DNA from: Sulfurimonas sp. HSL1-2
GTDB lineage: Bacteria; Campylobacterota; Campylobacteria; Campylobacterales; Sulfurimonadaceae
Direction: 5' to 3'
Length of the DNA stretch: 64,000 nucleotides
Assembly (NCBI RefSeq): GCF_039645565.1
Contig: NZ_CP147914.1
Location: 558,001 to 622,000, forward strand
In this document: positions 21,523 through 41,953 of the stretch, piece by piece
Numbering within the stretch: position 1 is the stretch's first letter
Layout of the letters: each line of letters opens with the position of its first letter
Notes under the pieces: generated by a model
What the model saw: only the letters and a program-made list of their open reading frames with translations
Told to the model about the DNA's origin: nothing
The model's database searches: none
Translations under genes and position numbers: made by a program

Positions 21523-21756
21523 ATGGAACAGCAATCACAAAACGTCGTTGACAGACTCGGCGGAAAAGTCGCGCAGGTCATGGCCCAGCTGCACGCCCTC
21601 AAAGAGGAGAACGAGGTTCTGAAAAACGACCTGATGAACCAGCAGGCGCAGAACGAAGCCTTCCGCGGCCAGATCGAACGTCTTGAGGCGGACAATGCTG
21701 CCAAAGAGCGCGAGATCGAAGAGATCGTCAACAAGATCGAGAGTATTCTCGGATAA
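21523..21756 (+). CDS. Small coiled-coil protein (ZapB-like)
   Basis: The 77-aa protein is almost entirely a heptad-patterned coiled coil (GGKVAQVMAQLHALKEEN, then LERLEAD-type repeats to the end) without membrane segments. Length and pattern resemble the cell-division factor ZapB, but coiled coils give weak evidence of homology. It is followed 22 bp later by another conserved 77-aa gene, a likely operon, and is divergent from uvrB. AGGA precedes the ATG. Confidence 0.6.
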   Translation: MEQQSQNVVDRLGGKVAQVMAQLHALKEENEVLKNDLMNQQAQNEAFRGQIERLEADNAAKEREIEEIVNKIESILG

Positions 21757-21778
21757 GCCGGCAGACCCGGCACAGCGT

Positions 21779-22012
21779 ATGAGCAAAAAAGTCTCCCTCA
21801 CCGTCAACCGCAGCCGCTTCGACATCGACCTCGACGATGCTTTCGCGGATTTCCTGCTGCACCAACTCGAGAAAGATTTCAAACTGGACGGTAACAACGA
21901 TCTGAAGGTCTTGCTGCAGGCGTATGTCAAGAAAAACTATGAGTTGTTTGAGCAGGATAGAAAAATTGTCAAGTTACTTGAGCAGATGACGGTGGAGTCT
22001 GCTGAAGCATAA
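21779..22012 (+). CDS. Small conserved hypothetical protein, possible ZapB-like partner
   Basis: The protein is 77 aa, starting at ATG 21779 (MSKKVSLTVNRSRFDIDLDD). It is charged and soluble, with a short N-terminal strand region and a helical tail, LLQAYVKKNYELFEQDRKIV. The N-terminal strand pattern faintly recalls ZapA, and pairing with a ZapB-like gene would fit, but no diagnostic residues are seen. The SASA esterase gene starts 4 nt after its stop, so the accessory block may be transcribed from this operon. Confidence 0.55.
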   Translation: MSKKVSLTVNRSRFDIDLDDAFADFLLHQLEKDFKLDGNNDLKVLLQAYVKKNYELFEQDRKIVKLLEQMTVESAEA

Positions 22013-22016
22013 CGTA

Positions 22017-22844
22017 TTGAAAAACAGACACCTTTTTATTTCCATCGCTTCACTCTCCGTACTTTTTTTGTTTTCAGTGTCAGTATTTCTGTCCGGACGC
22101 ACCGCATTGTGTGTAAGTAAGTCAGGGGAAACTCCACATTATCGGGTGATATTATTCGCCGGGCAGTCCAATATGTTTGGAATGGACCCGCTGCAAGAGC
22201 CCTACTCCGAAGCAATGTTGGGTCATCATCGGTTTGCCAATTTGAGAGACGATACCGATTTGCCAAAACGCGGTATCGGTCCTGCTAATAGCATGATGAA
22301 GGCATTGATTGAAACGTTTCCGGATGAACATTTTATATTTGTCATGTTTGCAGTCGGCGGGAGCAATGTCAAAGAGTGGGGGCCTGACAGATCAACAGGC
22401 TTTACGGTTCAATATAAAGACGAAACTTCTACATTTTACGAAGTCCTGCTCAAAGGGATTGAAGAAGCAGTCGATGGCCGGGATGTCTCCTGCGCTGCCC
22501 TGGTCTGGATGCAGGGGGAAGCGGATAGCCGCGAGTTGGAGTTGGCGGAAAATTATGACAAAAACTTTGACCGATTTTACCGATCACTGCAAAAAGATTT
22601 GGGGGTAGTGGATCTTCCTCTTATCATCGGGGAGGTAAACCCGCCTCTGAAAACCCACCGGTATCGTGAAACAGTGAGGACGTTGCAGGTTAAAATGGCA
22701 CAAAAATATGCGAACGCTGTTTTAGTAGATACGGACGATCTGGCCAAGCTGGAGGATGAGCTCCATTATACGGCAGCAGCAGATATTATACTCGGCAAAC
22801 GTTTTTTTGAGGCCTACATGCAGCTGATGCGGCATTCACATTAA
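22017..22844 (+). CDS. Membrane-anchored SASA-type esterase (SGNH hydrolase)
   Basis: The 275-aa protein has an N-terminal signal or anchor helix (LFISIASLSVLFLFSVSVFL), so the catalytic domain should be periplasmic. The sialate O-acetylesterase/DUF303 blocks are present: FAGQSNMFGMDP with the nucleophilic Ser, VGGSN, VWMQGEADS, and DELHYTAAA with the Asp/His pair. It likely removes acetyl or similar ester groups from a carbohydrate. The start is TTG 22017, 4 nt after the preceding gene. It lies directly upstream of the glycan operon, so editing of that glycan is a reasonable inference. Confidence 0.72.
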   Translation: MKNRHLFISIASLSVLFLFSVSVFLSGRTALCVSKSGETPHYRVILFAGQSNMFGMDPLQEPYSEAMLGHHRFANLRDDTDLPKRGIGPANSMMKALIETFPDEHFIFVMFAVGGSNVKEWGPDRSTGFTVQYKDETSTFYEVLLKGIEEAVDGRDVSCAALVWMQGEADSRELELAENYDKNFDRFYRSLQKDLGVVDLPLIIGEVNPPLKTHRYRETVRTLQVKMAQKYANAVLVDTDDLAKLEDELHYTAAADIILGKRFFEAYMQLMRHSH

Positions 22845-22874
22845 TCCACATGTCAATTGCCAAGATCGATATAG

Positions 22875-22880
22875 TATAAT
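22875..22880 (+). promoter_or_regulatory. -10 box of the glycan operon
   Basis: TATAAT lies 22 nt before the ATG of the GT2 gene and is the only clear promoter before the ten overlapping genes. Confidence 0.5.
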
Positions 22881-22902
22881 CTAATAAAAAAGTGTACTTT
22901 GC

Positions 22903-23844
22903 ATGAAAGAAATGCTTCACAGCTTTAGATATTCCATTGTCATCCCCGTTTACAACAGTGCTTCTTTTGTCACGAAAACGGTTCATCAAATAATCGAGGA
23001 GACTGAGAAGGCGCATCTTGTTGCCGAAATCATATTGGTAAACGACGGCAGCAGTGATGGAAGTTGGGACGTCATCAAGGGCCTGGCCCGTGAACTTCCG
23101 AATGTCAAATCGATCAATCTGATTAAGAATTTTGGGCAGCACAGTGCCATCCTGTGCGGCTTTGAGCATGCCTCTGGTCTGTACGTTATTACGATGGATG
23201 ATGACCTCCAAAACCCACCGAGCGAGATTGTAAAACTGACAAATGCTATCGAAAAGAGCGAGTTTGATCTCGTTTTCGGTAAGTTCACTGAAAAAAAGCA
23301 TGCAAATTACAGGAAACTCGGCTCGAAAGTTATCGGATATTTGAATCGTAAGATTTTCAATAAACCGGATCATATCGTATTGAGCAACTTTAGGATAATC
23401 CACAGGGATGTCATAGACCGTCTGCTTTCGCATAAAACCGCTTACCCTTATATTCCGGGGCTTTTATTGCTTTATGCTACCAATATCGGGAATGTAGAGG
23501 TCGAACACCACGAGCGCATAGAAGGTAAGTCAAACTATACCTTCAAACGTATTGTCAGTTTGGTGAGTCGTCTCCTTATCAACTACTCTTCCTATCCTTT
23601 GCGCCTGCTGAGTATGATCGGGCTGATCATTTCGGGTGCCAGTTTCCTTCTCGGTGTCGTTTATCTTCTTCTCGGCCTTTTCGGGTACGTGAATGTCCCA
23701 GGATGGACGACAATGGTCGTCCTGACGTCATTCCTCGGCGGTTTTATTATTGCGATGCTGGGGATCATCGGGGAGTACCTGTCGCGTATTCTTGATCAAC
23801 TTTCTTCGGAACGCAGTTACTATGTCAGAGAGATTGTAGAGTGA
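22903..23844 (+). CDS. GtrB/CsbB-like polyprenyl-phosphate glycosyltransferase (GT2)
   Basis: The 313-aa protein has a GT-A domain of family 2: YSIVIPVYNSASF at the start, ILVNDGSSDGSWD, and the metal-binding MDDDLQNPPSEI. Two C-terminal transmembrane helices follow (about residues 235-260 and 270-295). This is the layout of DPM1/GtrB/ArnC/CsbB enzymes, which load a sugar from a nucleotide donor onto undecaprenyl phosphate on the cytoplasmic face. It is the first gene of the overlapping operon, so it probably charges the lipid for the transferases encoded downstream. The sugar is not predictable. Confidence 0.88.
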   Translation: MKEMLHSFRYSIVIPVYNSASFVTKTVHQIIEETEKAHLVAEIILVNDGSSDGSWDVIKGLARELPNVKSINLIKNFGQHSAILCGFEHASGLYVITMDDDLQNPPSEIVKLTNAIEKSEFDLVFGKFTEKKHANYRKLGSKVIGYLNRKIFNKPDHIVLSNFRIIHRDVIDRLLSHKTAYPYIPGLLLLYATNIGNVEVEHHERIEGKSNYTFKRIVSLVSRLLINYSSYPLRLLSMIGLIISGASFLLGVVYLLLGLFGYVNVPGWTTMVVLTSFLGGFIIAMLGIIGEYLSRILDQLSSERSYYVREIVE

Positions 23845-24575
23845 AGCACAGCCATTTTATCATTGTCGGCGCGCAGCGCAGCGGTACAACCTACCTGTAT
23901 GAACTGCTAGCGGCGCATCCGGAGGTTTGTATGGCAACACCCGTGAAGCCGGAACCGAAGTACTTTCTCGGTGCTGAAAAAACACGTGATTATTCTACAT
24001 ACCTTTCCAGCTTTTTTAGCGGCTGCGGTCGCGAGGCGGTTCTGGGAGAGAAAAGCACGAGCTATTATGAAAGCGAGGGCGTTGCCGAACGCATTGCCGA
24101 GCTTATACCGGAAGCCCGTATCGTCTTCATGTTGCGTGATCCGGTCGAACGGGCCATTTCCAATTACTTTTTCAGTCGTAACAACGGTATTGAATCCCGG
24201 TCGCTTCGGGAGGTCTTTTTGCAGAACAAAACAGCACCGGCATATGACCGTTCCAGTATTTCCGTTAACCCGTTTGATTACCTTGGCCGCGGGGAATATG
24301 TGACATTCATCCAAAAATATCTTGCCGTCTTCGGGGCAAAGCAGGTCGGTGTTTTCTTTTTTGAAGAGCTGACGAAGCGCCTGGAGGCTTTGGAGACGCT
24401 GTATGAATTTATCGGTGTGGATCGGTCGTTCGTACCGGAGTGTTTTGCAGAGAAGGTCAATGCTGCGCAACGACATACCGTTGTCACGGATGATGTCACC
24501 GAAGCGTTGCGTCAGTATTACCTGCAGCCGAATCAACGGCTCTCCGAATTGCTTGGTAGGGAGCTGCCTTGGTAG
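23841..24575 (+). CDS. Sulfotransferase
   Basis: The 244-aa protein has both PAPS-binding motifs: the 5'-phosphosulfate loop IIVGAQRSGTTYLYELLAAH near the N-terminus, and the 3'-phosphate motif FMLRDPVERAISNYFFSR. It is cytoplasmic, with no signal peptide. It should transfer sulfate from PAPS to a hydroxyl or amino group, here most likely a carbohydrate given the neighbours. The start is GTG 23841, overlapping the GT2 stop by 4 nt. PAPS synthesis genes are not in this window. Confidence 0.85.
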   Translation: MKHSHFIIVGAQRSGTTYLYELLAAHPEVCMATPVKPEPKYFLGAEKTRDYSTYLSSFFSGCGREAVLGEKSTSYYESEGVAERIAELIPEARIVFMLRDPVERAISNYFFSRNNGIESRSLREVFLQNKTAPAYDRSSISVNPFDYLGRGEYVTFIQKYLAVFGAKQVGVFFFEELTKRLEALETLYEFIGVDRSFVPECFAEKVNAAQRHTVVTDDVTEALRQYYLQPNQRLSELLGRELPW

Positions 24576-24922
24576 AGTTCAGGAAACTTCTTCTTGTCAC
24601 CTTAACAGTGGTATTGACACTGGCCAGTGCCGCTTTGCTCAATTTCGGGGCAAAGCACCTTTCTGAAGGAGTTGTGGTCTCTTCAGCCGTTATTTTTTCC
24701 GTTTTAACTTTTAATGTACTCAAGCTGAAGCTCTGGGGGGACATCTACCAGCGGTACCATCTGCATGACAGTTACCCGCTGACTGCCGTTTTTTTTCCGC
24801 TGATTTATCTCTATGCTGTCGCGATCGGGGAAGGAACGCTGGTATGGAATAAAACACTGGGAGTGCTCCTGATCGTCATCGGTGTCGGGGTGATGAGTTA
24901 CAATAGGACATCTGCACAATGA
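24569..24922 (+). CDS. Small four-helix membrane protein, SMR/ArnE-like (first of pair)
   Basis: The 117-aa protein has four predicted helices, starting LLLVTLTVVLTLASAALLNFGAKHLS and ending GVLLIVIGVGVMSYNR. This size and layout match the SMR/EamA-half family, which includes ArnE and ArnF, proposed flippases for undecaprenyl-phosphate-aminoarabinose. Placement between a lipid-charging GT2 and the transferases suggests a lipid-sugar flippase, probably as a heterodimer with the next gene. The start is TTG 24569, overlapping the sulfotransferase stop by 7 nt; no ATG fits. Confidence 0.62.
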   Translation: MVEFRKLLLVTLTVVLTLASAALLNFGAKHLSEGVVVSSAVIFSVLTFNVLKLKLWGDIYQRYHLHDSYPLTAVFFPLIYLYAVAIGEGTLVWNKTLGVLLIVIGVGVMSYNRTSAQ

Positions 24923-25227
24923 GCTGGGGGTGTTTGAGTCTGGCAATTTTGGCCACCGCTTTTGGACAGTACAGTTTCAAACGCTATAAAATGACGCGCA
25001 GAGGGTTGTTCATAGCCGTCGCTTTAACACTTTTTGTACTGACGCCCGTACTGAGTTTCTGCGCGTTAAAGCAGATCCCTGTCGACACGGTGTATATGTT
25101 CACATCTTTAACGATTTTGGTGGTATTGTTACTTTCACACTTTTCGTTGAAAGAAACAATTCCCTTTCAGAAACTGATAGGTGCAGGATTTATTTTGGCA
25201 GGAGTCGTGCTTTATGGTATTCAGTAA
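24919..25227 (+). CDS. Small four-helix membrane protein, SMR/ArnF-like (second of pair)
   Basis: The 102-aa protein has four helices. The last two carry the EamA-type pattern YMFTSLTILVVLLLSHF then LIGAGFILAGVVLYGI, and the middle loop has LKQIPVDTVY, as in SMR proteins. It overlaps the preceding SMR-like gene by 4 nt (ATGA), so equimolar expression is likely. Together they probably replace the GtrA/GtcA flippase of similar systems. Drug efflux is the alternative for this family but fits the operon poorly. Confidence 0.65.
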   Translation: MSWGCLSLAILATAFGQYSFKRYKMTRRGLFIAVALTLFVLTPVLSFCALKQIPVDTVYMFTSLTILVVLLLSHFSLKETIPFQKLIGAGFILAGVVLYGIQ

Positions 25228-25762
25228 AAATACAAAGCGGCATCTCTTCATGTGGTATTCCTATGGTTTGAACCTTGGATTAATGCTGCTGAACCTCATG
25301 CCACCTCTTCTCAGGACATTGTGTCTGCGCATCGTGTTCGCTGGTTTCGGCCGGAATGTATTTGTCGATTACGGATGCTATTTCCGGTTTCCGAAAAAAA
25401 TCCGGGTTGGTAACGAAGTGACGATTGGCAGGGGGTGTATGCTCCTGCCCTCATATTTCATTGAATCCTCCGAGATTGTCATCGGCAATAATGTCAGAAT
25501 CGGACCATCGGTATCATTTTTGGCGGCCGGGCACGATCATCGGTATCTTCATTTACCGGATACCGGGGGAAGGATTCAAGTGGGTGATAACGTCTGGATC
25601 GGCGGAAATGTCACCATTCTGGCCGGAGTGAACATTGGCGAAGGTGCAATTGTGGCAGCGGGGGCGGTGGTGACTCGGGATATCGAGCCCTACTGTATCG
25701 CCGGAGGGGTCCCTGCCGTAAAAATCAAGATGAGAGAGGTCATGCACAATGATCTATTTTAA
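25214..25762 (+). CDS. Left-handed beta-helix (hexapeptide) acyltransferase
   Basis: The 182-aa protein belongs to the maltose/colanic acid O-acetyltransferase group. Hexapeptide repeats build the left-handed helix (IRVGNEVTIGRGCML, IVIGNNVRIGPSVSFL, IQVGDNVWIGGNVTI, VNIGEGAIVAAGAVV). The catalytic His lies in AAGHDHRYLH, and the C-terminus is IAGGVPAVKIKMR. It would O- or N-acetylate a sugar with acetyl-CoA. ATG 25214 overlaps the upstream gene by 14 nt. Because an aminotransferase follows, N-acylation of an amino-sugar is a possible role. Confidence 0.85.
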   Translation: MVFSKNTKRHLFMWYSYGLNLGLMLLNLMPPLLRTLCLRIVFAGFGRNVFVDYGCYFRFPKKIRVGNEVTIGRGCMLLPSYFIESSEIVIGNNVRIGPSVSFLAAGHDHRYLHLPDTGGRIQVGDNVWIGGNVTILAGVNIGEGAIVAAGAVVTRDIEPYCIAGGVPAVKIKMREVMHNDLF

Positions 25763-26873
25763 TGTGTCGCCGGTGACCGGCGATGAAATGGCCTATATTG
25801 GCGAGGCAATCCAATCACGCCTGTTGGCCGGAGACGGCCGTTTTACAAAGATGTGCGAGGCATGGTTTGAAAAGAGCTTGTCAACGCCAACAGTACTGAT
25901 GACAACTTCTTGTACACATGCACTCGAGATGGCTGCAATGCTTATCGGAATAGTGCCGGGCGATGAAGTGATCATGCCCAGTTATACCTTCGTCTCGACG
26001 GCCAATGCCTTTGTGATCCGAGGGGCAAAGATTGTTTTTGTCGATGTCCGTCCGGATACGATGAATATCGATGAAACACTGATTGAGGGTGCGATCACCC
26101 CGAGGACTAAAGCGATTGTCCCGGTGCATTATGCAGGTGTAGGCTGCGATATGGAAACCATCATGGATATTGCGACGCGGCATGGGCTCTACGTTGTGGA
26201 AGATGCGGCACAGGGGATGATGTCGACCTATGCAGGCAAACCGCTCGGTACTATCGGCCATCTGGGGACTTACAGTTTTCATGCTACCAAAAACTATACG
26301 AGCGGCGGGGAAGGTGGCCTGCTGATTATCAATGATGAAAAACTGGTGGACCGGGCACAGATTATTCGGGAAAAAGGGACGAACCGTAATCAGTTCTTTA
26401 GGGGGATGGTCGACAAATACAGCTGGGTCGATGTCGGGAGCAGTTATCTGCCCTCCGAAATCCAGGCCGCCTACCTTTGGGCACAGCTGCAGCATGCAGG
26501 TGCGATCCTGGCGGACCGTATGAACAGCTGGCAGGCCTATGACCGTTTTTTCCGTGCAAGCCCATATGCGCTTGAGCTGCCTACGATTCCAGAAGCGTGC
26601 ATTCATAACGCCCATATGTATTACATCAAAGTAAAGGATCTGGAGGAGAGGCGGCAGTTGATTGATCACATGCGTGATCAAGAGATTAATGCCGTATTCC
26701 ATTATGTTCCGCTGCACTCTGCACAGGCAGGCAGGCGTTTTGGCCACTTTCAGGGGGAGGACAGGTACACCACAAAAGAGAGTGAGCGCTTATTGCGTCT
26801 GCCTCTCTATTTCAAGATGTCAGGCAGTGATCTGGAACGGGTATGTGAGCAGGTGGATGCTTTTTTTAAATAG
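25749..26873 (+). CDS. DegT/DnrJ/EryC1/StrS sugar aminotransferase, WecE-like
   Basis: The 374-aa PLP enzyme has the catalytic lysine at residue 181 in FHATKNYTSGGEGG, which is close to the WecE/RffA form of the motif. Other family features are TTSCTHALEMAA, GDEVIMPSYTFVSTANAFV and VEDAAQGM. WecE makes dTDP-4-amino-4,6-dideoxygalactose from the 4-keto-6-deoxy sugar. The same or a related product is plausible here, but neighbouring substrate specificities are hard to tell apart. rmlA/rmlB-type genes for the precursor are absent from the window. It overlaps both neighbours (14 and 17 nt). Confidence 0.85.
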   Translation: MIYFNVSPVTGDEMAYIGEAIQSRLLAGDGRFTKMCEAWFEKSLSTPTVLMTTSCTHALEMAAMLIGIVPGDEVIMPSYTFVSTANAFVIRGAKIVFVDVRPDTMNIDETLIEGAITPRTKAIVPVHYAGVGCDMETIMDIATRHGLYVVEDAAQGMMSTYAGKPLGTIGHLGTYSFHATKNYTSGGEGGLLIINDEKLVDRAQIIREKGTNRNQFFRGMVDKYSWVDVGSSYLPSEIQAAYLWAQLQHAGAILADRMNSWQAYDRFFRASPYALELPTIPEACIHNAHMYYIKVKDLEERRQLIDHMRDQEINAVFHYVPLHSAQAGRRFGHFQGEDRYTTKESERLLRLPLYFKMSGSDLERVCEQVDAFFK

Positions 26874-28707
26874 CAGATTGTTTCTTCTCACAGTCGTCTT
26901 CCTGACGCTTGCCTTATACCTTGGGCCGTTCGGGCTGTACGGTCCCTCTGTGGCTCTACCGACATTTGACAATCTTGACAGTAAGATCGTCCTTTATAAG
27001 ATCTTGGCTGAAAGCGGTATGCTGTTTGCGCCTTCATCGTCTATTGTCCCCAATATGATGGATGGACTTCCGCGCCTCTCGTATGGGAGTGAATTGAATG
27101 CCTTGGTGTGGCTTTTTGTCTTTTTCAAACCTTTCACTGCCTATGTGATGAACGAAGTGATCATGCATCTGACGGCATTCGTCAGTATGCTGGTTTTACT
27201 GCGCCATTATTTTGTGCCTTATACCATTCGGTTCAGAAGGCTTGTTATCCTTTCGAGCTCTTTACTTTTTGCATTGACACCTTTCTGGTTCTCCGGCGGC
27301 CTGAGTGTCCCGGCAATGCCCCTGGTCTTGTACGCCTTTTTACGTATCAGAGATGGTCAGGGGAGGTGGCAGGAGTGGGCCGTACTGCTATTAGTGCCTT
27401 TTTACAGCAATCTGATTCTGGTGTACAGTTTTTTTTTAACGGCAATGGCACTCTGGGCAGTCGCGGACAGGATTGTGTACCGATCCATTAACCGCCCTTT
27501 TGTGGGTGCCATCGTACTGATGGGCATTGTCTATCTCGGTGTGGAATACAGACTGGTGATTTCTATGTTCTTTGATGATGCATTTATTTCTCACCGCACT
27601 GAATTCGTGAAGTATTACGGGACTTTTGCGGAGGCATTCCGCTCCGCACATTTGCTCTTCCTGGGAGGTGAAGAGCATACGGCAATACGGCTTTCACCTT
27701 ATGTGATCGGCACTGTCATGATCGCGATGCTGCTTTCGTTCAAGTCATCGGATTTCTCCCGAAAAGATTCGTTGCTTGTCATCGCCGTGATCTTACTGGG
27801 GTTTTTTTCAGGGTTATGGAACACTGCCTTGGCGCAGAAGATGACACTCCCGGTCATTGTCTCTGTTTCACTGGTAGGATTTTTCCTGCAAAAAGGAATT
27901 CTCAGAGTATTGTTTGCGATGATGCTTGTTCAGATCGCGTTTGCCTATGAATATGCATTTTGGTTCTATGAAGGGATGCATGATCTCGCCCGGCAGTTTT
28001 CTTTTATCGAAATGTTCAATATGTCACGCTTCTATTTTATGGCGATTCCACTGTGGATTGTTATGCTGGCCATTTCGTTTTCGCTGCTAGTGTCCAAACT
28101 CAAGTATGCTGAGATACTCATCGGTTCCGTGGTAGTGATGCAGGCGGCAACCCTCTTCGACGTACGGACCTTTGTCGAAAAAGACCTTTATCACACCAAG
28201 GTGGGTTTCGAACAATACTATGCACCGGAACTCTTTGAAGACGTTGCAGATACTGTCGGAAAGCCTAAAGATTCCTACCGTGTGGTCAGTCTGGGGATTC
28301 ATCCGCTTGTCGCACTCTATAACGGTTTTTATACGCTCGATGGCTATTGTACGAACTACCCACTCTCCTACAAGTACAGATTCCGTCCGGTCATTGCCGA
28401 CAATCTGTCACGATATCCCGGCAATAGAAAGATGTATGATGATTGGGGAAGCAAGTGTTACGTCTATGCGGGCAATATCGGTTACATCCGTTATTTCCCC
28501 GGGGTGGTGCTGAAAGGTGTCGAGATCAATGTCGATTATCTGAAGGCTATGGGAGGGGAGTATGTCCTTTCAGGCTATGAAATAGACGGTGCGGCTGACA
28601 TCGGATTGAAATTCATAAAAGTTTTTACAAGCGACAAGGCTTATTGGGATGTCTATCTTTATGAGGTGATAGGAACAGCAGGCGAAGGCGGGGAAAAAGT
28701 AGAATGA
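26857..28707 (+). CDS. YkoS/YfhO-like polytopic membrane protein, array copy 1
   Basis: The 616-aa protein has about 12 hydrophobic segments. The first extracytoplasmic loop carries FDNLDS (residues 37-42) and is followed by GLPRLSYGSELNALVWL. The C-terminal region has YRVVSLGIHPLVALYNGFYT, then LDGYCTNYPLSYKYRF, WGSKCYVY and the ending YWDVYLYE. These blocks recur in the other four copies. The group resembles YfhO/YkoS, proposed GT-C transferases that move sugars from polyprenyl phosphate to surface polymers; the paired acidic residues in the first loop suit that fold. ATG 26857 overlaps the aminotransferase gene by 17 nt. Confidence 0.65.
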   Translation: MLFLNSRLFLLTVVFLTLALYLGPFGLYGPSVALPTFDNLDSKIVLYKILAESGMLFAPSSSIVPNMMDGLPRLSYGSELNALVWLFVFFKPFTAYVMNEVIMHLTAFVSMLVLLRHYFVPYTIRFRRLVILSSSLLFALTPFWFSGGLSVPAMPLVLYAFLRIRDGQGRWQEWAVLLLVPFYSNLILVYSFFLTAMALWAVADRIVYRSINRPFVGAIVLMGIVYLGVEYRLVISMFFDDAFISHRTEFVKYYGTFAEAFRSAHLLFLGGEEHTAIRLSPYVIGTVMIAMLLSFKSSDFSRKDSLLVIAVILLGFFSGLWNTALAQKMTLPVIVSVSLVGFFLQKGILRVLFAMMLVQIAFAYEYAFWFYEGMHDLARQFSFIEMFNMSRFYFMAIPLWIVMLAISFSLLVSKLKYAEILIGSVVVMQAATLFDVRTFVEKDLYHTKVGFEQYYAPELFEDVADTVGKPKDSYRVVSLGIHPLVALYNGFYTLDGYCTNYPLSYKYRFRPVIADNLSRYPGNRKMYDDWGSKCYVYAGNIGYIRYFPGVVLKGVEINVDYLKAMGGEYVLSGYEIDGAADIGLKFIKVFTSDKAYWDVYLYEVIGTAGEGGEKVE

Positions 28708-34339: not shown

Positions 34340-34717
34340 ATGAAAAGAGCTGGTTTTACAATGATCGAATTGATCTTCGTTATCGTTATTCTTGGTATTT
34401 TGGCAGCGGTTGCCATTCCGAAACTGGCAGCGACTCGTGACGATGCTAAAACGTCAACAGAGCTGACAAACATTTCCACTGCGGTTAATGATATCGGTTC
34501 ATACTACACTTCTCAGGGTACAATTGACTCATCTAGCTCTGCATCAATTGCAGCGGGTAAAGTCAAATGTTTCTCTATCGCTGCTAACGGTGCAACAGGT
34601 ATCGTAGTTTCTTCTACAAACGATGCAACAACTTATTGTGCTGCTGCACATACTGCTGCAAACACACAGGGCCTGATCGGAACACACGTATTCGGTGGTA
34701 GTGGCGTTTCTTACTAA
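34340..34717 (+). CDS. Type IV pilin-like protein 1 (candidate major pilin)
   Basis: The 125-aa prepilin has the type III signal MKRAG/FTMIELIFVIVILG: Gly at -1 and Glu at +5. The helix continues to IPKLAATRDDAK. A Ser/Thr/Ala-rich globular part has two Cys, at CFSIAAN and TTYCAAA, and the C-terminus is GVSY. It is the shortest of four tandem pilins and the only one with Gly at -1. Its codons lean to GCT, TCT and ACA, unlike the neighbours, as in abundant proteins. It has a strong AAGGGG site, and a hairpin follows it. These points suggest the major subunit of the cluster. Confidence 0.8.
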   Translation: MKRAGFTMIELIFVIVILGILAAVAIPKLAATRDDAKTSTELTNISTAVNDIGSYYTSQGTIDSSSSASIAAGKVKCFSIAANGATGIVVSSTNDATTYCAAAHTAANTQGLIGTHVFGGSGVSY

Positions 34718-34738
34718 TACAATCTGATAAATGCTCTT

Positions 34739-34760
34739 TTCAACGGCATGGGCCGTTGAA
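34739..34760 (+). terminator. Hairpin after pilin gene 1, possible attenuating terminator
   Basis: TTCAACGGC pairs perfectly with GCCGTTGAA around a four-base loop (ATGG). The downstream tract, GGGGTTTTAT, gives only four T, and upstream T can extend the stem by wobble with those G. It is placed to end most transcripts after pilin 1 or to protect its 3' end. Confidence 0.6.
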
Positions 34761-34768
34761 GGGGTTTT

Positions 34769-34792
34769 ATAACAATATACCGGTATTGTTAT
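34769..34792 (+). repeat. Perfect 9-bp inverted repeat in the pilin 1-2 gap
   Basis: ATAACAATA and TATTGTTAT flank a six-base loop, TACCGG. It sits between the terminator-like hairpin and the hairpin at the start of pilin gene 2. It could be an operator or an RNA stem. Confidence 0.5.
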
Positions 34793-34812
34793 TAGACTCA
34801 AAGGGAGTCTAA
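34792..34812 (+). promoter_or_regulatory. Inverted repeat enclosing the pilin 2 ribosome-binding site
   Basis: TTAGACTC and GAGTCTAA pair perfectly around AAAGG and end at the base before the ATG at 34813. The Shine-Dalgarno sequence AAGGGAG lies in the loop and 3' arm, so the stem would hide part of it. This could reduce pilin 2 translation relative to pilin 1 or make it switchable. Confidence 0.55.
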
Positions 34813-35271
34813 ATGAACATAAAAAGAAATGCCTTTACGATGATAGAACTGATTTTTATCATCCTGATTCTGGGTGTTTTGGCTGCCATTGCGATTCCAA
34901 AGTTTGCTGCGACCAGAGATGATGCGAAAACATCTCGTATGGCTCACAATATTATGACCACCGCATTTGAAATTTCGACGTTTGTTGTCAGTAAGGCTAA
35001 CGTAGAAGCTGATTTTACGGTCATGTCCAATACAGCCAAACTCATGAATAATCTCGGGACAGTAACGCTTAGCAATTACAAGGCGGATTACAATTTCGGG
35101 AACGTCTCCCCCTGTGTGACGCTTGAAGTTCAAAATCCCAATGCACAGATTGTCTATCTTTCAATTGCCGTTCATCCCGCGGGTGGGGATGATATGTGTA
35201 CAGCCATGCAGGGGTTGATTGATGACGGCGTATTCCCAATCAAATTAAAGGGTAGTAGTGTCTCATATTAA
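34813..35271 (+). CDS. Type IV pilin-like protein 2
   Basis: The 152-aa protein has the prepilin signal MNIKRNA/FTMIELIFIILILG, with Ala at -1 and Glu at +5, then IPKFAATRDDAK. The globular part carries a two-Cys element, VSPCVTLEV to GGDDMCTAMQ, and the C-terminus SVSY, the same plan as pilin 4. It follows pilin 1 after 95 bp filled with inverted repeats, and overlaps pilin 3 by 14 nt. It is probably a minor or alternative subunit of a type IV pilus or type II secretion pseudopilus. Confidence 0.78.
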   Translation: MNIKRNAFTMIELIFIILILGVLAAIAIPKFAATRDDAKTSRMAHNIMTTAFEISTFVVSKANVEADFTVMSNTAKLMNNLGTVTLSNYKADYNFGNVSPCVTLEVQNPNAQIVYLSIAVHPAGGDDMCTAMQGLIDDGVFPIKLKGSSVSY

Positions 35272-35710
35272 AAAAAGAAGAGCTTTCACGCTTATTGAAT
35301 TGGTTTTCATCATTGTGGTACTGGGGATCCTGGCCTCCATTGCCATTCCGAAATTTTCAGCTACACGGGATGACGCGCATATTTCAAGTGCCCGTGCAAC
35401 GATCGGTGCAGTCCGGTCCGGTATCGTGTCGGTACGCCAAAAATATCTGCTCAGAGGCGTGAACAGTTATATCAACTCATTAAGCTGCGGAGGATCAGGG
35501 GTGCTCTTCGACGGGAACTGTACAGCAGGTACGGAAATTCTGATGTACCCGTTGACACCTTCGACAGCGAACGGACATTGGTCTCAGAGCGGAAGCGATT
35601 ATGTTTTCCATATCATGGATAAGAGTTGTACGTTTGCATACAATTCAGGTACTGGTACATTTGCTCTGAAAGCCTCACAGCCTTCAGAATGTGACCCGCT
35701 CGATTTCTAA
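35258..35710 (+). CDS. Type IV pilin-like protein 3
   Basis: The 150-aa protein has the prepilin signal MSHIKKRRA/FTLIELVFIIVVLG, Ala at -1 and Glu at +5, then IPKFSATRDDAHISSAR. The globular domain differs from the other three: the Cys are in LSCGGSGVLFDGNCTAG, DKSCTF and SECDPLDF, and the C-terminal VSY is absent. The start is GTG 35258, overlapping pilin 2 by 14 nt, so translation is likely coupled. The distinct C-terminal part suggests a different position in the fibre, for example a minor or tip pilin. Confidence 0.78.
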   Translation: MSHIKKRRAFTLIELVFIIVVLGILASIAIPKFSATRDDAHISSARATIGAVRSGIVSVRQKYLLRGVNSYINSLSCGGSGVLFDGNCTAGTEILMYPLTPSTANGHWSQSGSDYVFHIMDKSCTFAYNSGTGTFALKASQPSECDPLDF

Positions 35711-35721
35711 ACGGTATCCAC

Positions 35722-36171
35722 ATGTTACGCAGTGCATTTACGATGATCGAACTTATTTTCGTCATCGTTATACTCGGGATCCTGGCAGCCGTTGCCATTC
35801 CCAAACTGGCAGCAACGCGGGATGATGCCGAAGTAAGTGCAATCATGACAAAGATTGGACAGGCTGTAGGCGAAATCTCCAATTATGCCGTTTCACAGGG
35901 AAAAGTTGAGACCGACTTTTCTGTGATGTCAAATGCTATTGATAATCTTGTGATGCGGGGTGAAGCGACACTGGGAAATAAGAGTGCCGCCATTAAGGGC
36001 GGCAGTGTGGCAAATTGTGTCTCAATTCAGGTGGTAACGAACGGTTTGGACGAAAGCATGCAGATTCTCTTCGGTGCACCCGGAGGGGATGATAAGTGTG
36101 CTGCAATTCAGAATAACCTTCCGCTCCAGAATGAGACGATTGCACTTGTTGGGAACCGCGTAAGCTATTGA
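35722..36171 (+). CDS. Type IV pilin-like protein 4
   Basis: The 149-aa protein has the prepilin signal MLRSA/FTMIELIFVIVILG, Ala at -1 and Glu at +5, then IPKLAATRDDAE. The N-terminal half is nearly the same as in pilin 1. The globular part aligns with pilin 2 (VETDFSVMSN in both forms, a two-Cys GGDDKCAAIQ element) and the end is RVSY. It starts 11 bp after pilin 3. priA begins 54 bp later and probably has its own signals. Confidence 0.78.
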   Translation: MLRSAFTMIELIFVIVILGILAAVAIPKLAATRDDAEVSAIMTKIGQAVGEISNYAVSQGKVETDFSVMSNAIDNLVMRGEATLGNKSAAIKGGSVANCVSIQVVTNGLDESMQILFGAPGGDDKCAAIQNNLPLQNETIALVGNRVSY

Positions 36172-38112: not shown

Positions 38113-39174
38113 ATGATTAAGCGCTATCCCACCAAACAGATCTATGTCGGAAACGTCCCCGTCGGCGGGGATGCGCCCATCTCTGTCCAGTCGATGACCT
38201 ACAGCCGTACCCGCGATGTTGAAGCGACGGTCGAGCAGATCAATCGCCTCCACTTCGCGGGATGTGACATCGTACGTGTCGCCGTCCCGGATATGGAAGA
38301 TGCCCTGGCGCTCAAAGCGATCAAGGAGCGGATCTCGCTGCCCCTTGTCGCCGATATCCACTTCAACTACAAACTGGCCCTCGTTGCGGCCGAAGTTGTC
38401 GACTGCATCCGCATCAACCCGGGCAATATCGGTGAGCAGAGCCGCGTGAAAGATGTCGTCAAGGCCTGCCAGGAGCGCAACATCCCGATCCGCATCGGTG
38501 TAAATGCCGGTAGCCTGGAGAAGCAGTTTGACACAAAATACGGCCAGACGGCGGAGGGAATGGTCGCCTCGGCAGAGTACAACATCAAATTCCTCGAGGA
38601 CCTCGGTTTTACGGACATCAAGGTCTCTCTCAAAGCTAGCGACGTACAGCGCACTGTTGATGCTTACCGGATGCTGCGCCCGAAGAATAACTATCCCTTC
38701 CACCTGGGCGTTACCGAAGCGGGGACGAAGTTCCATGCGACAGTGAAGAGCGCCATCGGTCTTGGTGCCCTGCTGCTCGACGGGATCGGTGACACGATGC
38801 GGGTCTCCATCACCGGCGAGCTCGAAGAGGAGATCAACGTCGGCCGTGCGATCCTCAAGGACTCCGGTGCGGCGGGCGAAGGGCTCAATATCATCTCCTG
38901 TCCGACCTGCGGCCGGATCGAGGCGGACCTAGTGAGCGCGGTGGACGAGATCGAGCGTAGGACCAAGCACATCAAGGCACCGCTCAATGTCTCCGTCATG
39001 GGCTGTGTCGTCAACGCCATCGGCGAAGCGCAGCACGCCGACGTCGCGATCGCCTACGGCAAGGGAAGTGGCCTGGTGATGGTCAAGGGCGAAGTCGTCG
39101 CACGTTTGGAGGAGAAGGATCTTGTGGATAAGTTCGTCGATGAAGTCGAGAAGATGGCGGAGGGGAATGAATAA
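38113..39174 (+). CDS. ispG: 4-hydroxy-3-methylbut-2-en-1-yl diphosphate synthase
   Basis: IspG (GcpE) is a 4Fe-4S enzyme of the MEP isoprenoid pathway that converts MEcPP to HMBPP. The 353-aa protein starts with [20 protein letters not shown] and includes [12 protein letters not shown] and RINPGNIG. The cluster ligands are in SCPTCGRIE and [12 protein letters not shown]. It is followed directly by dnaB, whose ATG overlaps the ispG stop by one base, so the two are co-translated. Confidence 0.95.
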
Positions 39175-40616
39175 TGGAAGAGAAACTCTATAACCTCGCA
39201 TTTGAAAAAGCCGTTCTCAGTTCCATCATCTTCGAGCCTTCCCAGTTCGAGGAGCTCGAAGCGATCCTGAAGCCGGATGATTTCTACCTGCCGGCCCACA
39301 AGGATATCTACGGCGCTATTGTCTCTCTCACCCGACGTGACGAGCCGATTGACGAGGAGTTTATCCGCAAAGAGCTCAGCGCGAAGAAGAAGTTCGACGA
39401 GAACGTGATGCTCGAGATCCTCTCGGCCAACCCGATCTCGAATACGGCGGCCTATGTCAGGGAGCTGAAGGACAAATCGCTCAAACGCCACCTGCTGACC
39501 CTGACGACGGAGATAAAGAAGGTTGCGCTCGAAGAGGAGTGGCCCAGCAGCGACGTCGTCGACATGGTCGAGAAAAAGCTCTACGAGATCACCCAGGATT
39601 CGCAGACGAGCGACTTCAAAGATGCCGAGTCGGTGACGATCGATACGATGCGCTACATCGAAGAGATGAAGGCGCGCGGTAATTCCGTACTGGTCGGTGT
39701 CGATACGGGCTTTGCCGAACTCAACAAGATGACGACGGGTTTCGGCAAGGGGGACCTCGTCATCGTTGCGGCGCGCCCGGCAATGGGGAAGACCTCCTTT
39801 GCACTTAACATGGTGCAGAACCTGCTGCGAAAAGGGAAGGGCGTCGCTTTCTTCTCCCTAGAGATGCCGGCGGAGCAGCTGATGCTGCGTCTCCTCTCCG
39901 TCGATACCTCCGTCCCGCTGCAGAAACTGCGCGTCGGCGATATGAACGACGAGGAGTGGACCCGGCTGGGGCAGGCGGTCGAGCGGATGCAGTCGAGCAA
40001 GCTCTTCGTTGACGACCAGGGGTCGGTCAACATCAACCAGCTCCGCTCCCGCCTGCGCAAGCTTAAGGGGCAGCACCCCGAGATCGAGATGGCCGTCATC
40101 GACTACCTGCAGATCATGAGCGGTACGGGCACGCGGGACCGCCACCTTGAAGTCAGCGAGATGTCCCGGGGGCTGAAGATGCTTGCGCGTGAGCTGGAGA
40201 TGCCGATCGTCGCACTCTCCCAGCTCAACCGCGGCCTGGAGTCGCGCAACGACAAGCGCCCGATGCTCAGCGATATCCGCGAATCCGGTTCCATCGAGCA
40301 GGATGCCGACATCATCCTCTTCGTCTACCGCGACGACGTTTACCTCTACAAGGAGGAGAAAGAGCGTGAAAAGGCGGCGAAGGCGGAGGGCAAGGAGTTT
40401 ACACCCACCTACGTCGAGAAGGAGGAGGAAGAGGCCGAGATCATCATCGGCAAGCAGCGTAACGGCCCGACCGGGCACGTCAAGCTGCTCTTCCAGAAGC
40501 GGCTGACGCGCTTTATCGACATGCCGACCTACAACGCGACGGAGATCGTGTATGAGAATGTCGATACGTCGAGCGCCCAGATGGACGTCGGCACTGTTTC
40601 GATGCCGACGATCTGA
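39174..40616 (+). CDS. dnaB: Replicative DNA helicase DnaB
   Basis: DnaB is the hexameric 5'-3' fork helicase. The 480-aa protein has an N-terminal DnaB domain (LYNLAFEKAVLSSIIFEPSQ) and a RecA-like C-terminal domain with Walker A ARPAMGKTSFALNM and Walker B MAVIDYLQIM, followed by LSQLNRGLESR and SDIRESGSIEQDAD. There is no intein. An acidic insertion, EKEEEEAEIIIGKQRNGPTG, contains the family IxKxRNGPTG motif. It is coupled to ispG. The gene ends 38 bp before a large inverted repeat. Confidence 0.96.
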   Translation: MEEKLYNLAFEKAVLSSIIFEPSQFEELEAILKPDDFYLPAHKDIYGAIVSLTRRDEPIDEEFIRKELSAKKKFDENVMLEILSANPISNTAAYVRELKDKSLKRHLLTLTTEIKKVALEEEWPSSDVVDMVEKKLYEITQDSQTSDFKDAESVTIDTMRYIEEMKARGNSVLVGVDTGFAELNKMTTGFGKGDLVIVAARPAMGKTSFALNMVQNLLRKGKGVAFFSLEMPAEQLMLRLLSVDTSVPLQKLRVGDMNDEEWTRLGQAVERMQSSKLFVDDQGSVNINQLRSRLRKLKGQHPEIEMAVIDYLQIMSGTGTRDRHLEVSEMSRGLKMLARELEMPIVALSQLNRGLESRNDKRPMLSDIRESGSIEQDADIILFVYRDDVYLYKEEKEREKAAKAEGKEFTPTYVEKEEEEAEIIIGKQRNGPTGHVKLLFQKRLTRFIDMPTYNATEIVYENVDTSSAQMDVGTVSMPTI

Positions 40617-40653
40617 TCCACTGAAACCACCCCTTTCCCTTCAAAAAGATTTG

Positions 40654-40687
40654 ATAGAATAACTATAAACCAAAATAGTTATTCTAT
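40654..40687. repeat. Perfect 13-bp inverted repeat abutting the comEC start codon
   Basis: ATAGAATAACTAT (40654-40666) and ATAGTTATTCTAT (40675-40687) flank an eight-base spacer, AAACCAAA. The second arm ends at the base before the comEC ATG, and no Shine-Dalgarno sequence is visible. Being AT-rich it is a poor intrinsic terminator; an operator or a translation-blocking stem is more likely. Confidence 0.7.
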
Positions 40688-41953
40688 ATGAAACTTGAAC
40701 CGCCGCATCTGCTGGCTTCTAGACAGGAAGTCCTAGTGTTTCTTGGCCTCGTATTCCTTCTTTTTATTATTTCCCTATGGGGAGAGTACCACTCGTACCG
40801 GAAACTGACCCGTTATGACGATGCGGTAATTTCGGCAACCGTTGAGCAGCAGTATGAAAAACGCAAGCAGGGGAGTGCTTACCAGGTCCTGAAACTGCGC
40901 AGCGAGGCGGGCGCCCCCTTTTTTATCACGGTACCGACGGCCCTGCGGAACCTGCAGGGGTACGAGGTCCGTGTCTGGCTCAAAACGGACCGGTTGGATT
41001 TTTGGCACTATCTGGGCGGTTTTTTCGCCTACGGGGCCATCGACGCGGTAATGCCGCAGCGGCAGTGGAAGTTCCGGGCGGGGGAGTGGATTGCGGATCA
41101 GCACACCGAGCCACGGAGCGGTGCACTCTTCGCCGCCCTCTTTACGGCGACGCCGCTGCCGCCGGATCTGCGCAAAGCGCTGGCGCGTCTGGGGATCAGC
41201 CACTTGCTGGCGATCAGCGGTTTCCATCTGGGGCTGCTCAGCATCTTCCTGTTTGCGCTGCTGCGTTTGCCCTACCGCTATCTTCAGACGCACCTGTTCC
41301 CCTGGCGTAATGCCCGCCGGGACCTCTTTTATGCCGCTGCCGCCGTACTCTGGGGGTATGCCCTGTTTTTGCATTATCCCCCGTCGGTACTGCGTGCATT
41401 CGCGATGATGCTCGTCGGGTTTATCCTCTATGACCGCGGCCTCCGGCTTCTCTCCTTTCAGACCCTCGGCATCGCGGTTGTTCTGTTGATTGCTTTCTGG
41501 CCGCGCCTGCTCTTTTCCGCCGGCTTCTGGCTCTCGGTCGCAGGTGTCTTCTATATTTTCCTTTTTCTGCAGCGTTTCGCCGACCGGGGACGGCTTTTCA
41601 CTTTTGTGGGCATTCATTTGTGGGTCTATGCGATGATGCTGCCGATTGCGCTGGCTCTTTTCGGGACTTTTTCGATACTGCACCCGCTCTCCGTGCTTTG
41701 GACGATGGTGTTCATTCTCTTTTATCCGCTTGGGCTGCTGCTGCACGCTGTCGGAGCGGGGGGTATCCTCGACACCCTTGTCGTCTGGATACTGGAGCTT
41801 CCGGCGACGCCGGTCCGCATAGAGGTCGGAAGGTGGTTTTTGGCTGCCTGGGCAGGGCTAAGCCTGCTTGCGCTTCCATTCAAGACGGTCAAAATGCTCC
41901 TGCCCTTTCTGGCCGCGGCGGTATTTGTAGGCGCGGTCTATCAGGTAGCATAG
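40688..41953 (+). CDS. comEC: ComEC/Rec2-related competence protein (short form)
   Basis: The 421-aa polytopic inner-membrane protein has the ComEC core: a short N-terminal OB-like region, then GALFAALFTATPLPPDLRKAL and LGISHLLAISGFHLGLLSIF. The Competence domain signature is YPPSVLRAFAMMLVGFILYD. The C-terminal metallo-beta-lactamase domain of longer ComEC proteins is absent, as in Campylobacterota. It should form the DNA uptake channel. ATG 40688 lies directly after the 13-bp repeat; GTG 40736 with AGGA upstream is a less likely start. The 3' end overlaps the convergent YihY gene by 96 bp. Confidence 0.87.
   Translation: MKLEPPHLLASRQEVLVFLGLVFLLFIISLWGEYHSYRKLTRYDDAVISATVEQQYEKRKQGSAYQVLKLRSEAGAPFFITVPTALRNLQGYEVRVWLKTDRLDFWHYLGGFFAYGAIDAVMPQRQWKFRAGEWIADQHTEPRSGALFAALFTATPLPPDLRKALARLGISHLLAISGFHLGLLSIFLFALLRLPYRYLQTHLFPWRNARRDLFYAAAAVLWGYALFLHYPPSVLRAFAMMLVGFILYDRGLRLLSFQTLGIAVVLLIAFWPRLLFSAGFWLSVAGVFYIFLFLQRFADRGRLFTFVGIHLWVYAMMLPIALALFGTFSILHPLSVLWTMVFILFYPLGLLLHAVGAGGILDTLVVWILELPATPVRIEVGRWFLAAWAGLSLLALPFKTVKMLLPFLAAAVFVGAVYQVA

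Follow-up and report, generated by a model that had tools for sequence, protein, structure and literature searches.

The dnaB–comEC junction and its surroundings

In the window, meaning the whole 64-kb stretch of DNA that was analysed, the genes dnaB and comEC lie in tandem on the plus strand with 71 nt between them (Table 1). The spacer ends in an inverted repeat whose arms are complementary at 13 of 13 positions, and the last base of the right arm directly precedes the ATG of comEC at 40688. The coordinates and the sequence agree exactly with the initial annotation, which had described a perfect 13-bp repeat with an 8-bp separation abutting this start codon.

Table 1. Features at the dnaB–comEC junction (positions within the window).
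Feature	Position	Strand	Remarks
dnaB, replicative helicase	39174..40616	+	PF03796 and PF00772; ORF coordinates; likely source of read-through RNA
dnaB–comEC spacer, 71 nt	40617..40687	+	Most likely derived; most relatives without a spacer
TTTGATAGAAT, extended -10 box predicted for the promoter of comEC itself	40650..40660	+	Hexamer at 40655-40660; overlaps the left arm
Left arm ATAGAATAACTAT	40654..40666	+	5' strand of the predicted hairpin
Loop AAACCAAA, 8 nt	40667..40674	+	Holds the predicted transcription start at ~40667 (deduced from the -10 box)
Right arm ATAGTTATTCTAT	40675..40687	+	3' strand of the predicted hairpin; end of the predicted comEC leader
comEC, DNA-uptake channel, 421 aa	40688..41953	+	PF03772, E 3.5e-29; conserved N-terminus; begins right after the right arm

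The ATG at 40688 is likely to be the true start of comEC, because it is preceded by an in-frame TAG (40676-40678) and close relatives share the N-terminus MKLEPP.LL. The conserved N-terminus from this ATG also ruled out a downstream start, GTG at 40736, which is preceded by AGGAAG.

The two genes are usually much closer together. In 109 of 133 records from the family and the order, comEC lies less than 20 nt from dnaB, the 133 being the records, among 160 and with some genomes counted twice, in which both a comEC start and a dnaB stop were found (of the others, 23 lacked a dnaB match and 4 a usable start). The close junction has been lost in the present genome, and this distribution makes a spacer with its own promoter most likely a derived state. 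A terminator scan of the 71-nt spacer called none. The repeat was also considered as an intrinsic terminator of dnaB and rejected, since it consists of an AT stem followed by ATG rather than a G+C-rich stem and a T run, and the scan calls none.

Several other features of the window were recorded. Three ORFs near comEC (34340-36168), all of them short, carry a methylation motif like that of type IV pilins (PF07963); two of these matches fall just under the cut-off. Two of the three ORFs are poorly conserved in relatives, and they may be pilins or pseudopilins. None of the scored genes at 21535-28707 was matched in the corresponding syntenic regions of three relatives (G006, G001 and G007), and this region is possibly an island. 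The minus-strand gene at 44187-44996 matches PF15436, the N-terminal domain of the plasminogen-binding protein PgbA (E 6e-59). This family was named from a host-associated bacterium, and the name may mislead for the gene found here.

The inverted repeat, the candidate promoter and the predicted hairpin

A repeat of this kind had been held improbable by chance, and our shuffling analyses bear this out. When the 101-base locality was shuffled 2000 times with dinucleotide composition kept (loops of 3-20), the longest stem had 9 pairs and none of the 2000 reached 10. In 60 block-shuffles of the whole window, an arm of 13 bases never arose and one of 12 bases arose twice. In a listing of the 64-kb window that allowed loops of 0-30, the repeat at 40654-40687 is the longest perfect inverted repeat.

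The left arm contains a conserved -10-like box. The hexamer TAGAAT is retained at the same place in all seven alignable members of the genus, where one reads TAAAAT, and the 11-mer to which it belongs has three copies in the genome, every one upstream of an ORF. In Campylobacter jejuni, the housekeeping promoter is described as an extended -10 element, TGxTATAAT, with no clear -35, and leaders are mostly 20-50 nt long (PMC3656092). The 11-mer matches this extended -10 pattern as it is given there. Transcription would be predicted to start about 7 nt past the box, in the loop at ~40667, and therefore comEC's own mRNA would begin with AAACCAAAATAGTT and would not include the left arm.

The predicted 21-nt leader of this mRNA contains none of the motifs AGGA, AAGG, GGAG and GAGG. 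The initial annotation had pointed to the missing Shine-Dalgarno sequence. Its absence holds, but not as a special feature, since a motif of this type is found at -18 to -4 in just 13 of the 27 scored leaders of the window (on crude gene calls), and a motif-less comEC leader is therefore unremarkable here. A search of Rfam returned no element at the repeat up to E 1. Two matches, at 41112-41189 and 41131-41185, were set aside; they lie inside comEC and score below the gathering thresholds.

Computed folding gives different predictions for the two possible RNAs. The predicted stem of 13 pairs ends at -1 and joins upstream sequence to the initiation region; in the long RNA this hairpin is the minimum-energy fold (z -3.7), whereas in the short RNA expected from the comEC promoter it is gone (z 0.4). 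The predicted cost of opening the region from -15 to +13 was 13.9 kcal/mol when the RNA was folded from -75 and 2.1 kcal/mol when it was folded from -21, and the difference ranks 3rd among 244 leaders.

We tentatively favour, at a little under an even chance, the reading that the palindrome is the DNA of an RNA hairpin that silences read-through and is built around the promoter of comEC itself. RNA begun at or before dnaB would cross the spacer and carry both arms. The left arm would then pair with the right arm, the bases directly ahead of the AUG would be closed off, and little ComEC would be made. RNA begun at comEC's own promoter, starting in the loop, would lack the left arm; its leader, about 21 nt long, would be open and translation would proceed. 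How much ComEC is supplied would then depend on the gene's own promoter rather than on the dnaB transcript. The earlier proposal of a stem that blocks comEC translation is made plausible by the prediction, but in a narrower form: because the left arm contains the -10 box, the stem is expected in read-through RNA only, and not in comEC's own mRNA.

Conservation and competing explanations

Conservation upstream of comEC in close relatives, on which the initial annotation had made its reading depend, was found. The 34-mer occurs within 3 mismatches in five of eight genomes of the genus, at one site each, and each site is upstream of comEC. The stem is perfect in the present genome, has one G-U pair in G006 and one U-U mismatch in G001 and G007, and is clearly weakened in G002. 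The repeat is also perfect in L012 and L034 (titled Sulfuricurvum sp. SZUA-415), where ComEC is 99% identical, and it is imperfect elsewhere. The contrast in opening cost between long and short RNA is retained in G006, G001 and G007 (10.0, 10.8 and 9.3 kcal/mol, respectively) and amounts to 5.0 kcal/mol in G002, whose ComEC is 90% identical. It was not seen in G003 (2.7), G033 (0.1) or G005 (-1.9 kcal/mol). In G004, comEC directly adjoins dnaB.

The locus could also hold an ordinary promoter followed by an AU-rich leader, each conserved for its own sake, with the perfect complementarity an accident of AT-rich sequence and the structure functionless. This is possible, and we give it substantial but smaller weight. 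The weakened stem in G002 agrees with it. The -10 box is likewise present in G003 and G005, whose leaders differ, and G005 keeps the box with no stem at all. Across five members of the genus none of the 13 pairs shows a compensatory change, and variable pairs are altered on one side only. The leader itself is not exceptionally conserved, with an identity of 0.97 against the 0.86-1.0 that is general for window leaders (-35 to -1) among G000, G001 and G007; most leaders here are equally conserved, and we therefore no longer took the conserved right arm to prove a structure. Covariation was likewise sought as proof of structure and not obtained, in the close clade or in the genus g8. Against an accident of composition stand the 13 perfect pairs, where local shuffles never reached 10, and the recurrence of repeats of unrelated sequence in other comEC leaders that have a spacer.

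Such repeats take several forms. In G018, 13 of 14 positions of the repeat pair and its 5' arm ends with TATAAT, in G003 it has 12 of 13 pairs with the ATG within the stem, and in G033 it has 9 of 9 pairs with the ATG within the loop. The genus g8 has a longer, G-U-rich stem that is 84.7% paired across four genomes, with the -10 box in its 5' strand, so that in G018 and g8, too, this box borders or forms the 5' strand. Covariation in g8 was limited to one double change (1 of 18 pairs in four genomes) and was not above shuffles. In another family, G265 (L163) carries a perfect repeat of 15 of 15 pairs at -43 to -5 of comEC, in single copy in that genome; a dnaB match upstream of this comEC was not found.

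When counted by lineage, with the present genome excluded, a repeat score of at least 9 was reached by 3 of the 11 independent lineages with a spacer, compared with 6 of 237 control leaders (p 0.0048, post hoc, the cut-off of 9 having been picked after the data were seen). The opening-cost difference was also larger in spacer lineages than in controls (p 0.0077, post hoc). Both signals became weaker when 22 leaders without a dnaB match were added (repeats 4 of 33, p 0.023; opening cost, p 0.14). The 109 abutting comEC records showed no excess, with a score of at least 9 in 1 of 109 and a median opening-cost difference of 1.3 against 1.4 in controls. The controls came from crude gene calls (longest non-overlapping ORFs of at least 100 aa, first start codon), were unmatched for G+C, and were purged of seven comEC rows by BLAST. 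Since the cut-off was set post hoc and the controls are crude, the lineage excess is suggestive only.

Two further patterns were seen in these leaders. A tandem pyrimidine-rich repeat of the CATTYMCC type lies just upstream of the promoter and is common to the comEC spacers of three genera (L008, 1425-1439; L014, 2810-2824 on the minus strand; L016, 2810-2824 on the minus strand). Among 223 loci it was found in 4, each of which is a comEC locus (L090 being the same contig as L014), and it may mark the spacers' mode of origin. At the abutting dnaB–comEC junctions of L019, L033 and L040, 8-bp arms lie on either side of the comEC start codon, so that the loop contains the ATG; this pattern may be incidental to the coding sequences.

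The initial annotation had also suggested an operator for a dimeric regulator. The perfect dyad across the promoter would agree with a DNA site at which a dedicated dimeric protein covers the -10 box to the start codon and represses comEC. Each arm reads ATAG-N5-CTAT and the arms lie 21 bp apart, which would correspond to two helical turns. We consider this quite unlikely. With up to 3 mismatches allowed in its fixed letters, the repeat as a whole has no other copy in the 2.52-Mb genome; nor has either arm with up to 1 mismatch, and ATAG-N5-CTAT occurs three times in it, two of these being the arms themselves. The changes in close relatives are one-sided and break the dyad, so that an operator of a regulon finds little place here, and the repeats at other comEC leaders are unrelated in sequence.

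Other promoter arrangements are very unlikely. A facing antisense promoter in the right arm draws on the presence of TAGAAT on both strands in G000, G006, G001 and G007, but the minus-strand box is missing in G002, G003 and G005 while the plus-strand box is retained in all seven; by sequence, the two boxes face each other, unlike those of divergent bidirectional promoters, whose starts are reported to lie most often 18 bp apart (PMC12825309). A leaderless comEC mRNA could arise from TTGATA-17-AATAGT, which scores 9 of 12, and this bacterial class is reported to have leaderless mRNAs (PMC3847290), but AATAGT is a poor -10 and such an mRNA would leave the read-through hairpin intact.

Comparison with known systems and implications

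A hairpin that silences read-through RNA has precedents, and by its predicted structure the comEC hairpin is probably of the same type as those of phage T4 gene e and Bacillus subtilis sigG. In T4 gene e, the DNA that encodes the 5' strand of an inhibitory stem also contains the late promoter. Translation of the long early transcripts is poor, and the gene's own transcript, which does not include that strand, is translated (PMC3014915). The same arrangement is predicted for comEC. Hairpins in the initiation region are also described for T4 soc, 49 and I-TevI (PMC3014915). The T4 case has been proved by experiment and concerns a phage gene whose late promoters are timed, whereas comEC is chromosomal and its hairpin is predicted. 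Moreover, the helix in gene e and the others of its kind takes in the Shine-Dalgarno sequence, the AUG or both (PMC3014915), while the comEC stem stops at the base preceding the AUG and comEC lacks a Shine-Dalgarno sequence.

For sigG, a large stem was proposed to block the translation of read-through RNA (PMC5942855). Like comEC, sigG is a chromosomal gene in tandem behind another operon, and, as is predicted for comEC, the stem cannot form in RNA from its own promoter. It differs in that sigG encodes a sporulation sigma factor, the stem has at least 20 pairs and a Shine-Dalgarno sequence is present (PMC5942855); the bacterium and the gene are both unrelated to ours.

DNA uptake is under other kinds of control in other bacteria. 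Legionella RocC/RocR is reported to act post-transcriptionally at the 5' untranslated regions of DNA-uptake mRNAs, which resembles the present proposal, but it works in trans, by means of a small RNA together with a chaperone, and not through a hairpin in cis (PMC7973641). In the same phylum, Helicobacter pylori HP1021 regulates DNA uptake as a protein acting on comB genes, and comEC is reported as unchanged there (PMC10593804). Our literature search, which covered titles and the openings of abstracts, did not find a comEC leader hairpin.

The proposed hairpin may also be seen in an evolutionary setting. Within this order, whenever comEC moves away from its usual position close to dnaB, selection might rebuild such a hairpin from unrelated sequence, with its 5' strand at the new promoter, which would be a convergent insulation of the uptake channel from transcription of the replicative helicase. 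We regard this wider proposal as unlikely.

If the favoured reading is right, the promoter of comEC itself would determine expression of the uptake channel, with active shielding against transcription from dnaB, and this would point to where the control of DNA uptake in this group should be sought. It would also suggest that read-through-silencing hairpins are a recurrent means of splitting old operons, which could be tested by transcript maps across the phylum.
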